DNA from: Sulfolobus sp. SCGC AB-777_G06
GTDB lineage: Archaea; Thermoproteota; Thermoprotei_A; Sulfolobales; Sulfolobaceae
Assembly: GCA_003086555.1 (NCBI GenBank)
Contig: QEFN01000013.1
Location: 1-25,579 of the forward strand
Reading direction: 5' to 3'
DNA: 25,579 nt
In this document: piece by piece, positions 1,907 through 4,371 of the stretch
How the letters are laid out: every line of letters starts with the position of its first letter
Numbering within the stretch: the first letter of the stretch is position 1
Notes under the pieces: model-generated
What the model saw: only the letters and a program-made list of their open reading frames with translations
Databases searched by the model: none
Told to the model about the DNA's origin: nothing
Program-made: the position numbers and the translations under genes

Positions 1907-1996
1907 GCGGCCGTCGTCTAGCCTGGATTAGGACGCTGGCCTTCCAATGAGCTAGAGGAAAGCCAGTAATCCCGGGTTCAAATCCCGGCGGCCGCA
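1907..1996 (+). tRNA. tRNA-Gly(TCC) with intron
   Basis: The acceptor stem GCGGCCG/CGGCCGC, T arm CCGGG-TTCAAAT-CCCGG (1972-1988) and anticodon stem CTGGC/GCCAG (1936-1940, 1962-1966) are all perfect. The anticodon is TCC at 1943-1945. Between position 37 (A1946) and 38 (A1961) sits a 14-nt intron (about 1947-1960). TTCC in the anticodon loop can pair with GGAA in the intron, giving the four-base central helix of a bulge-helix-bulge motif for the archaeal splicing endonuclease. CCA is not encoded. A TATA-like ctttaaaa (about 1874-1881) lies at the expected distance upstream. Confidence 0.95.
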
Positions 1997-2154
1997 CTTA
2001 GTTATAATATATCATTATTACAACTCTTTTCACATCATACATATAGTATAGAATTTGGTCCGTTTGAGATTTATTAGACCTTTTCTTACTTATTTGAAGC
2101 ACTAACCAAAGTGTTATATTCATCATGTAATACCTAAAATTCGTTAAAAATAGT

Positions 2155-2232
2155 ACTTGTAGGGACCTCTGGAGACTCTGTATCATCGTAACCCCAAACT
2201 TGGGGAACTCAACAGAGTGTCGCCCGGTCCCA
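2155..2232 (-). ncRNA. Candidate box H/ACA guide sRNA with kink-turn
   Basis: Read on the minus strand the segment folds into one hairpin of archaeal H/ACA type. It has a lower stem GGGACC/GGTCCC, a pocket of 7+7 nt (GGGCGAC and CTCCAGA), a 7-bp upper stem ACTCTGT/ACAGAGT, an asymmetric loop with TTGAG on one side and ACGATGAT on the other (kink-turn-like, with TGA and GATGA for tandem G-A pairs), and an apical CCCCA-AGTT-TGGGG hairpin. An ACA trinucleotide (2160-2158) follows one base after the lower stem, exactly 14 nt from the pocket's upper edge, as in known guides. The plus strand also shows ACA after the fold but lacks the G-A elements. Predicted target form: TCTGGAG-UN-GTCGCCC; I could not place it in rRNA. 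Such RNAs guide Cbf5. Confidence 0.72.
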
Positions 2233-2253
2233 ACAAAAACATTAACCATTAAA

Positions 2254-2262
2254 CCTATAAAT
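2254..2262. promoter_or_regulatory. Shared TATA box between H/ACA RNA and tRNA-Phe
   Basis: The only good TATA-like element in the interval is cctataaat. Its centre (about 2258) is 27 nt upstream of the tRNA-Phe 5' end (2285) on the plus strand. It is also 27 nt upstream of the start of the H/ACA fold (2231) on the minus strand, where it reads TTTATAGG. One element therefore fits the normal archaeal spacing for both transcripts. This is inferred from spacing only. Confidence 0.5.
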
Positions 2263-2284
2263 TCATTCTTCATAAAATAATAAT

Positions 2285-2374
2285 GCCGCCGTAGCTCAGC
2301 CCGGGAGAGCGCCCGGCTGAAGGCCGGATCACGCAGGGACCGGGTTGTCCGGGGTTCAAGTCCCCGCGGCGGCA
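2285..2374 (+). tRNA. tRNA-Phe(GAA) with intron
   Basis: The acceptor stem GCCGCCG/CGGCGGC, anticodon stem CCCGG/CCGGG (2312-2316, 2340-2344) and T arm CGGGG-TTCAAGT-CCCCG are complete, with discriminator A. The anticodon is GAA at 2319-2321. The loop is interrupted after G2322 by a 16-nt intron (about 2323-2338) before A2339, the canonical 37/38 site. CCA is not encoded. Confidence 0.95.
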
Positions 2375-2639
2375 TTACTTGGATATGGATCACTCCTGAA
2401 TATGCTGCGTTACTTACTTAGAAGATTTTCTGCGAATATTTAGAGCTTCAACAAATTAAAACTTCCATTCTGATAGTTTAATTATAAGGTCTTAATAATA
2501 TTAAGGAAAATAATTATTTATATTATAAAAAACTAAAAGAATTCTTGAAAGAAGTTCGAAGTGCTATTTGTTCTTGTTCTATCTAATAGCTAAATGACAG
2601 TCTTTGTTAGCAAGTGTTACCTTTTTAAGGAGATAATTA
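2375..2639. other. Gene-free spacer between tRNA-Phe and tRNA-Ser
   Basis: This AT-rich stretch has no convincing frame on either strand, no box C/D or H/ACA arrangement that I could find, and no tRNA-like fold. It contains several A/T runs only. Confidence 0.6.
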
Positions 2640-2735
2640 CGCCGGGGGCGGGATTCGAACCCGCGCACGGTGACCCGTACTGGCTATCCCAGTAAGCTCT
2701 CAAGGCCAGCCCCTTAACCGCTCGGGCACCCCGGC
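2640..2735 (-). tRNA. tRNA-Ser(TGA) with intron
   Basis: On the minus strand the acceptor stem is GCCGGGG/CCCCGGC with discriminator G. The D arm CCCGAGCGGTTAAGGG and a long variable arm mark a class II tRNA. The anticodon stem CTGGC/GCCAG encloses CT-TGA-G, giving anticodon TGA (2702-2700). A 13-nt intron (about 2686-2698) separates position 37 from A38. The G discriminator and anticodon favour Ser over Leu. A TATA-like TATTAAA (2761-2766 region) sits about 28 nt upstream and overlaps the spacer before the methyltransferase stop. Confidence 0.92.
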
Positions 2736-2773: not shown

Positions 2774-3346
2774 TCAGTCTTTCCTTACAATTATAATCGA
2801 GTATCCCTTAATCCTCCTATAGACCTCAACGTTTTTGAATTTCTGGCTAAATAAATTAATCACGTTTTCTTCACCCTTGTATACTACGAGCTGTATTAGT
2901 CCACCTTCGGTAACTCTGTCGTAGCTAGTACTTGCTAGTCTCTCTATGAATGCTTTTCCAGCCTTCAAGGGTGGATTAGAGTAAATTGCATTAAATTTAA
3001 TCTCTGATGGTATGTTTTCAAATATATCACTTTGGATAACGTGGACTCTGTTTTCAAGCCCGTACCTACTAACGTTTTTTCTGGAATAATAGACGGCTTT
3101 CTTATCAACATCAAGCATGTAAACCTTAAGATTAGGGTTTTTTAATGCCAAATAAATTCCTATTGGACCATAGCCACAACCTACATCGGCAACTACCCCG
3201 CTCTCGGGTATTATTAGGTTCTCTAGCATTACTTTAGTACCTAAGTCTAGTTTATCCTTAGAGAATAGACCATAAGAACTCTCTAAAGACAAGGGTATAC
3301 CGTTAACTACATCGTTTACAAAAATTATTTCTTTAATCTTTTTCAT
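2774..3346 (-). CDS. MTS-domain SAM-dependent methyltransferase (RsmC-like)
   Basis: This is a 190-residue class I Rossmann methyltransferase. The SAM-binding motif I is VADVGCGYGPIGIYLA (about residues 52-67), followed by an acidic strand end YMLDVD (about 76-81). The catalytic motif IV is SNPPL (about 123-127); an NPP[LFY] motif is the mark of N-methyltransferases acting on exocyclic amines of bases, as in the RsmC/RsmA-like MTS family. The likely substrate is rRNA or tRNA guanine or adenine, but the exact base cannot be told. It lacks the duplicated N-terminal half of bacterial RsmC, as expected for archaeal single-domain forms. The start lies 14 nt inside the 3' end of cbf5, so the two are co-transcribed with rpl14e, which suggests a role in ribosome or RNA modification. 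Confidence 0.85.
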   Translation of the reverse strand: MKKIKEIIFVNDVVNGIPLSLESSYGLFSKDKLDLGTKVMLENLIIPESGVVADVGCGYGPIGIYLALKNPNLKVYMLDVDKKAVYYSRKNVSRYGLENRVHVIQSDIFENIPSEIKFNAIYSNPPLKAGKAFIERLASTSYDRVTEGGLIQLVVYKGEENVINLFSQKFKNVEVYRRIKGYSIIIVRKD

Positions 3347-4371
3347 TCTTTTTCCATCCCTTCGGATAAACGTCTCTTTCCATTAAGACTCTCTTAGGTT
3401 TTACTACAATTCCTTTCTTCATATTTTGTATTTCGTTACTGTTTATGTTACTTTCCCCTATTGCTACAATTTCTCCTTTTAGTGTCATTATGGCCACATT
3501 TTCACCTCTCTTAAAGTTCTGAAATGCCACTACACCCGGTGCATTTAATGTAGCACCGTAAGTAATGGCATTGACCGCGTCATCATCGATTACCACTTTT
3601 GGAATTCCACACACTGCAAATTCCATGGGAAGCAAAACTCTTCTTAGGTCACTCTCATCTTTGCAGTGTTTGTACATGTACAATGCCTCTGAGATCTCGT
3701 GGAGAGTAACTAAGTTTGAATCCTCGGTGAATATTCCTGATCTTGTTCTTCTTAGTTCTCTCATGTGAGCTCCACAACCAAGTAATATCCCGACATCATG
3801 ACATATTTTTCTCATATAAGTACCAGGCTCAGAGGCTATTTTCATGAGTACCAATCTTCCTTCAGTCTCAAGAATGTCTATACTGTATACTCTTCTTTTT
3901 CTTGTCCTTCTCTTAACTGAAGATCTTACTGGAGGCCTCTGATATATTTCACCAATGAATTGGTTAACTATCTCTTTGAGCTCATCCATTTTGTAATCGC
4001 AGTGTACTTGCATAATGCAGACATATTCTTTACCAGCCTTACTAATAAGGCTCATCAGTTTTGTTGCATTTTCCATTCCTATTGGCAATACTCCCGTTAC
4101 TTTTGGGTCTCCCCGCACGTTAAACGTGCTCTAGGGTCCCCCCATGGCCTACTTTGTTCAAGTTAAACATTTTCTTAACCCAATATGCAACTTCATGACT
4201 TGTAGGACCCGCTGGCTTATCTAAGTTTATTATTGCGTTTCTTATCAGGGCCTCTATAGGTCTTTTGTCGGGATAGAAGCCGTATTTATCATCTGTTTGA
4301 GCTTCTCGAAGTATATTCCAACTATTACTGTAATTACAAAAATGATCTATCTTTTCTAAAAATTTATACAT
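3333..4371 (-). CDS. cbf5: Cbf5/dyskerin-like tRNA and rRNA pseudouridine synthase, split by an intron
   Basis: This is the catalytic subunit of archaeal H/ACA RNPs; it also makes Psi55 in tRNA. Exon 1 (4371-4131) encodes 80 residues ending GHGGTL and exon 2 (4108-3333) continues DPKVTGVLPIG. Removal of 22 nt (4109-4130) joins G+AC into the GAC codon for Asp81, the catalytic Asp of the TruB/Cbf5 motif G-T-L-D-P. The spliced protein is 338 residues, normal for archaeal Cbf5: an N-terminal extension, the catalytic domain, and a C-terminal PUA domain (about 255-330, with PKVVIDDDAVNAI and IVVKPKRVLM). Unspliced mRNA stops at TAA 4120-4122 after 83 residues. The gene starts 1 nt after the rpl14e stop and overlaps the methyltransferase at its end. 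cbf5 introns are known from Sulfolobus and Aeropyrum. Confidence 0.95.
4109..4130 (-). other. Archaeal pre-mRNA intron in cbf5 (22 nt, BHB-type)
   Basis: Reading the minus strand, an inner hairpin GCACG-TTTAA-CGTGC is flanked by two identical AGA bulges. Between them CCCT of exon 1 can pair with GGGG of the intron (one G-U pair), giving a 3-4-3 bulge-helix-bulge. Cutting each AGA after its second base yields CTAG+ACCC, exactly the frame needed. Because both bulges are AGA, neighbouring cut choices give the same mRNA. The outer helix (GGG with CCC) is short and has an unpaired A. Confidence 0.9.

Follow-up and report, generated by a model that had tools for sequence, protein, structure and literature searches.

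The window analysed here, the whole stretch of 25,579 nucleotides, contains a near-palindromic interval between tRNA genes that an initial annotation, made from the letters alone, had taken for a box H/ACA guide RNA. Which RNA is encoded there, on which strand, and which uridine it would direct to be modified are the questions addressed below. The minus strand of 2155-2236 almost certainly encodes an archaeal box H/ACA guide RNA with one hairpin. The features of the locus are as follows.

2155..2236, minus strand: box H/ACA sRNA gene; fold z -3.6; covariance-model match of 99.5 bits over model positions 1-82, the window being one of the ten rows used to build the model
2226-2231/2162-2167, minus strand: lower stem, 6 bp, GGGACC/GGUCCC, hand count
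2212-2218/2175-2181, minus strand: upper stem, 7 bp, ACUCUGU/ACAGAGU, hand count
2202-2205/2192-2195, minus strand: apical stem, 4 bp, CCCC/GGGG, hand count
2219..2225, minus strand: 5' guide strand GGGCGAC, with the core GGCGAC at 2219-2224 invariant in 31 of 31 rows
2168..2174, minus strand: 3' guide strand CUCCAGA, with the core CUCCAG at 2169-2174 invariant in 31 of 31 rows
2183..2211, minus strand: kink-turn and apical hairpin, read from the sequence, UGA 2209-2211 opposite GAUGA 2183-2187
2158..2160, minus strand: ACA box, beginning 14 nt from the upper-stem edge
2256..2261, minus strand: TATA-like element TTTATA (TATAAA in plus-strand letters), located upstream of model position 1 at a distance of 20-25 nt
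2284..2375, plus strand: tRNA-Phe (gaa) with intron, divergent neighbour, called by ARAGORN
3333-4371, minus strand: cbf5, with DKCLD at 4120-4371 and TruB_N, TruB_C_2 and PUA at 3333-4118

The three nested minus-strand stems and the TGA facing GATGA, both described in the initial annotation, were recovered at these positions. Above the upper stem, a U.U and two G/A pairs bring the GA stem of the window RNA to 10 pairs by hand count, followed by a GAU bulge, a G-C pair, a U-A pair and the apical stem; we take this order of stem, bulge and G/A pairs to be that of a kink-turn. Under the rules for kink-turns, in part those of PMC4652768, it should be the L7Ae site. The window RNA thus has the hallmarks of the H/ACA class, namely a hairpin with an internal pocket between lower and upper stems, a kink-turn with tandem G/A pairs and a 10-pair GA stem, and an ACA box within 14-16 nt of the upper-stem edge. 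Of 15 productive archaeal folds in PMC4652768, 14 have a GA stem of 10 pairs, and the distance to the ACA is 14-15 nt. The 82-nt core folds at -34.8 kcal/mol and the 96-nt stretch 2145-2240 at -36.9 kcal/mol (z -4.0), both on the minus strand and neither equalled by any of 200 shuffles; in its minimum-energy fold the isolated RNA forms two pairs (GA/UC) within the pocket. In Rfam release 15, no H/ACA family reaches its gathering cut-off at 2155-2236, and the lone H/ACA line elsewhere is HgcG at 2434-2504, with 9.6 bits against a cut-off of 77. Another small RNA, the C/D-box sRNA sR20, is matched by Rfam at 1820-1875 on the minus strand (44.3 bits, cut-off 44).

A DNA similarity search found matches in 10 of 41 related genomes. 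The covariance model, built from alignment A2 (the window and nine DNA-similarity relatives; L005 was excluded), gave a single match each in 30 of 31 genomes of the family (Sulfolobaceae), covering all 11 genera. The RNA is present in all 28 genomes that are at least 90% complete, and the one miss is a 71%-complete genome. Six opposite-strand matches were removed from alignment A3, and the duplicates L104, L112, L113 and L121 were excluded from A4; L099 and L007/L108 are one and the same RNA. A planctomycete match to the DNA pattern (L098) showed no matching stems by eye and was set aside as chance.

Among the 31 rows, which comprise the window and 30 family homologs, GGCGAC and CUCCAG occur without variation. 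The ACA is found at exactly 14 nt from the pocket edge, as originally described for the window, in 30 rows (it is absent in L129), and the TGA of the kink-turn is retained on the 3' strand in 30 (not in L117). The symmetric 7+7 pocket of the initial annotation agrees with the letters GGGCGAC/CUCCAGA of the window but not with the family as a whole: the seventh positions are T-A in 10 rows, T-G in 7, C-G in 6 and G/A in 8, the window among the last. As they pair in 23 of 31 rows, the pocket is nearer 6+6, and in most genera the seventh positions belong to the lower stem. The upper stem is one letter shorter in some genera (e.g. L108 and L109), the count of a 10-pair GA stem being that of the window.

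Compensatory changes, for which the initial annotation proposed to look in relatives, are present. In a 27-row alignment, which was fitted to the covariance model itself, 90.7% of cells pair, and both partners change in 10 of the 19 pairs, a number reached in 1 of 500 shuffles. Cells with changes on both sides number 48 against a shuffle mean of 16.1, with none of 500 shuffles as high, and a control with slid partners gives at most 11. In the MAFFT alignment A2 there are 12 such cells against 5.7 expected (0 of 500 shuffles), and five pairs with both sides changed, a count matched by 171 of 500 shuffles. Fold, geometry, covariation and family-wide conservation together support the H/ACA class that had been proposed.

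The place of the RNA is also constant. All 31 rows have the start of a divergent tRNA 44-50 nt upstream of it; ARAGORN recognises a tRNA at that place in 24 of the 30 loci and assigns 15 of these to Phe. TATA-like words occur in 30 of 31 upstream stretches, a count obtained with loose patterns in AT-rich DNA and without a control, and TTTATA/TATAAA of the window is, from its position and letters, a possible shared promoter of the sRNA and tRNA-Phe. The cbf5 gene does lie close by, about 1.1 kb away, as had been remarked; the link of the sRNA to it is probably incidental, since the neighbour that stays constant in all 31 rows is the tRNA start. The gene is read in two frames, a DKCLD part and a TruB/PUA part, with a break near 4119. 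An intron is carried by the Sulfolobales cbf5 pre-mRNA (PMC2738675), and the split sits where this known intron is expected; the 121-nt stretch around the break has a moderate fold only (z -1.3). In the same part of the window there are three tRNA genes of a length that could accommodate introns, at 1907-1997 (plus), 2284-2375 (plus) and 2640-2735 (minus), of which ARAGORN calls only two. Two short adjoining ORFs on the minus strand, 295-600 and 788-1042, resemble pieces of one glycosyltransferase gene, trehalose-synthase-like and perhaps decayed.

A near-palindrome that always neighbours a tRNA start, as here in all 31 rows, could also be a terminator, a cruciform or an operator between tRNA genes, with no guide made at all. 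Both strands do fold (z -4.5 for the plus strand of 2155-2236), so that fold energy cannot assign the strand. The minus strand was assigned from the ACA at exactly 14 nt and from the TGA on the 3' strand; these strand-specific signals, together with the invariant unpaired pocket strands and the 10-pair geometry, are at odds with a mere palindrome and make this explanation highly improbable.

Since the RNA is read as an H/ACA guide, the question becomes its target. The search set consisted of complete rRNA sequences, five of 16S and five of 23S, from relatives of the window's genome, not from its own assembly; many rRNA stretches of relatives read N or were not found, most family 16S genes among them. 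The literal 7+7 target form of the initial annotation, TCTGGAG-UN-GTCGCCC, did not hold up: with up to three mismatches, the matches listed stand at the level of a reversed-pattern control and none recurs. Exact 6+6 targets with wobble are missing from 3 of 10 genomes, and in the others their number matches the control. Three candidates at wider spacings, CUGGGG...GUCGC in 16S, CUGGAG...GCUGCC in 23S and the 530 loop of 16S, were discarded because their spacers are non-canonical.

A register-locked scan, in which the U-N spacer between the two duplexes was fixed, gave a more specific result. All six pairs of CUCCAG form in 5 of 5 sets at only one of 451 conserved U columns, and this column is in 16S helix 31. 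The site, UUGGAG-U-C-AAC(G/A)CC, lies at positions 928, 930, 907, 928 and 925 in the five 16S sequences, and the 10 of 31 family genomes that could be read here all carry UUGGAG-UC-AAC(G/A)CC, as AACGCC in eight and AACACC in G010 and G012. The 5' duplex has -10.0 kcal/mol without initiation, beyond the -6.0 kcal/mol cut-off given in PMC4652768. As to the rRNA or tRNA target with an unpaired U that the initial annotation asked for, helix 31 offers a U in the unpaired register with six pairs on its 5' side, and on its 3' side four pairs (GGCG/CGCC) that follow two mismatches at n+2 and n+3; AACACC, present in two of the five sets (L032 and L033), weakens this half further, and candidates with an n+2 mismatch are set aside in PMC4652768. 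Helix 31 leaves the invariant AC of GGCGAC unexplained.

Among shuffled guides, 21% have at least one conserved six-pair site (184 of 1000 in a second run), so that pairing alone is not significant. Other six-pair sites exist in single rRNA sets, and two single-species sites, L031 U712 and L033 U639, pair better than helix 31. The weight of the assignment comes from the site being a known modified position. In S. solfataricus, m1acp3-pseudouridine 930 stands at the tip of helix 31 and contacts C34 of the P-site tRNA (PMC11698992), and the position counted in L030 (G009) is likewise 930. That source also records Nep1 and Tsr3 in S. solfataricus, and in yeast the same nucleotide is made by snR35, then Nep1, then Tsr3 (PMC7026641). 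In titles and abstract openings of the papers listed, no guide assigned to the archaeal helix-31 position was found. The target proposal is of moderate confidence: the RNA probably acts as the H/ACA sRNA for the helix 31 uridine of 16S (930 in S. solfataricus).

In nine genomes, 28 places have GA, CTCCAR and ACA at the spacing of the guide, a pattern that covers this geometry only and misses the copy in G012. Eight of them are homologs, folding at -27.9 to -37.4 kcal/mol, and the other 20 fold at -6.9 to -20.4 kcal/mol. A simple stem count does not separate the two groups cleanly (13-16 of 16 for the homologs, 9-13 for the chance places), whereas fold energy does.

The AC that helix 31 leaves unexplained does pair with a second site, ACAGGG-U-C-GUCGC in 23S rRNA, which from its GAUAACAGG context we take to be the equivalent of E. 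coli U2457, near the peptidyl transferase centre. One pocket of the same RNA might therefore serve both this uridine and 16S U930, with each half held constant by a different target, helix 31 of the P site and 23S U2457; we regard such dual use, and such an origin of the invariance, as no better than tentative. Between them the two complementarities account for each of the 12 invariant letters: helix 31 alone uses CAG and the first G, 23S alone uses AC, and both use the remaining letters. In 4 of the 5 sets U2457 has at least eight register-locked pairs in an unbroken run, as no other site does, and none of the 17 family genomes read departs from GUCGC. The uridine is a pseudouridine in E. coli and in yeast, where snR34 is its guide (PMC11121408). 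On the other hand, the bipartite complementarity around U-N is 3 + 5 pairs here and 6 + 4 after two mismatches at helix 31, and the three-pair 5' duplex has -3.6 kcal/mol, short of the -6.0 cut-off. The letters upstream of the U are GGG in 14 of the 17 genomes, GAG in G008 and AGG in G010 and G018, and the last two, which form genus g9 (ACAAGG), lose one of the three 5' pairs. Shuffled guides give a site of at least eight pairs in 132 of 1000 cases and both kinds of site in 36 of 1000.

It is also conceivable, though we doubt it, that neither proposal above is correct and that this H/ACA guide serves only 23S U2457, a tRNA or some other RNA, or has no target. No perfect target was found in the pattern searches. 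Two tRNAs of G001 have a U after six 5' pairs but lack contiguous 3' pairs, and the best of the 45 unspliced G001 tRNAs reaches seven contiguous pairs. Matches outside the family bear on the same point. Under stricter filters, 5 of 166 genomes beyond the family give weak covariance matches (E 0.001-0.012), four of them in one family; we treat these order-level matches (L166-L170) as tentative relatives of the guide. They retain GCGAC in 4 of 5 (not in L168), CUC in 5 of 5 and CAG in none, which would suit 23S alone; yet they were found by a model that rewards the GCGAC and CUC letters. Judged by its 5' duplex, helix 31 also passes with the out-of-family guides (-7.8 and -7.1), with 23S at -4.5 to -6.1. 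One of these genomes, G048, has the same helix-31 letters. The ACA is found in two of the five, at 12-13 nt. L170, at 427-504 on the plus strand, has a clear hairpin, a TATA-like stretch upstream and an ACA at 13 nt, and is perhaps a distant relative.

Among known systems, the RNA shares one hairpin, the kink-turn, the 10-pair GA stem and the 14-nt spacing with H/ACA sRNAs of Pyrococcus and other archaea (PMC4652768), but has a 3' guide strand of 6-7 nt and a short lower stem of 6-7 pairs, so that of the folds listed there the variants 10/6/8 and 10/8/7 are closer to it than the main ones, 10/5/9 and 10/6/9. Yeast snR35, the guide for 18S U1191 (PMC7026641), has the proposed nucleotide and the subsequent Nep1 and Tsr3 in common with it; snR35 is a eukaryotic snoRNA, likened by target, and the 3' pairing half of the archaeal RNA is interrupted. 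Yeast snR34, acting on 25S U2826 (E. coli U2457; PMC11121408), shares the nucleotide of the second candidate target, at which the archaeal pairing is weak (5+3 pairs). Sso1, the S. solfataricus guide for tRNA-Tyr U35 (PMC4652768), is of the same class and from the same organism family. Since no good tRNA target was found among the 45 tRNAs of G001, Sso1 is taken to be a different guide, set apart by target only. Since H/ACA sRNAs have been recorded for S. solfataricus (PMC4500138), its copy of this guide may already be among them.

With helix 31 as the preferred target, the following mechanism is proposed. The sRNA would be transcribed on the minus strand, divergently from tRNA-Phe. Its kink-turn would bind L7Ae, and the ACA, lower stem and pocket would bind Cbf5 with Nop10 and Gar1. 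CUCCAG would then pair with UUGGAG just 5' of the helix 31 tip uridine (930) and GGCG with CGCC on its 3' side. Cbf5 would convert the uridine to pseudouridine, and Nep1 and Tsr3 would carry the modification on to m1acp3-pseudouridine, the nucleotide in contact with the P-site anticodon.

The later enzymes of this pathway being known, the RNA is a candidate guide for its first step, on the way from uridine to m1acp3-pseudouridine 930 in Saccharolobus, and makes that step testable by one small deletion. The analysis also provides a family-wide covariance model for an RNA without a matching Rfam family. The invariance of the pocket may reflect two targets at once; if this is true, one RNA would start the synthesis of m1acp3-pseudouridine in the small subunit and, in the large one, that of a universal pseudouridine.
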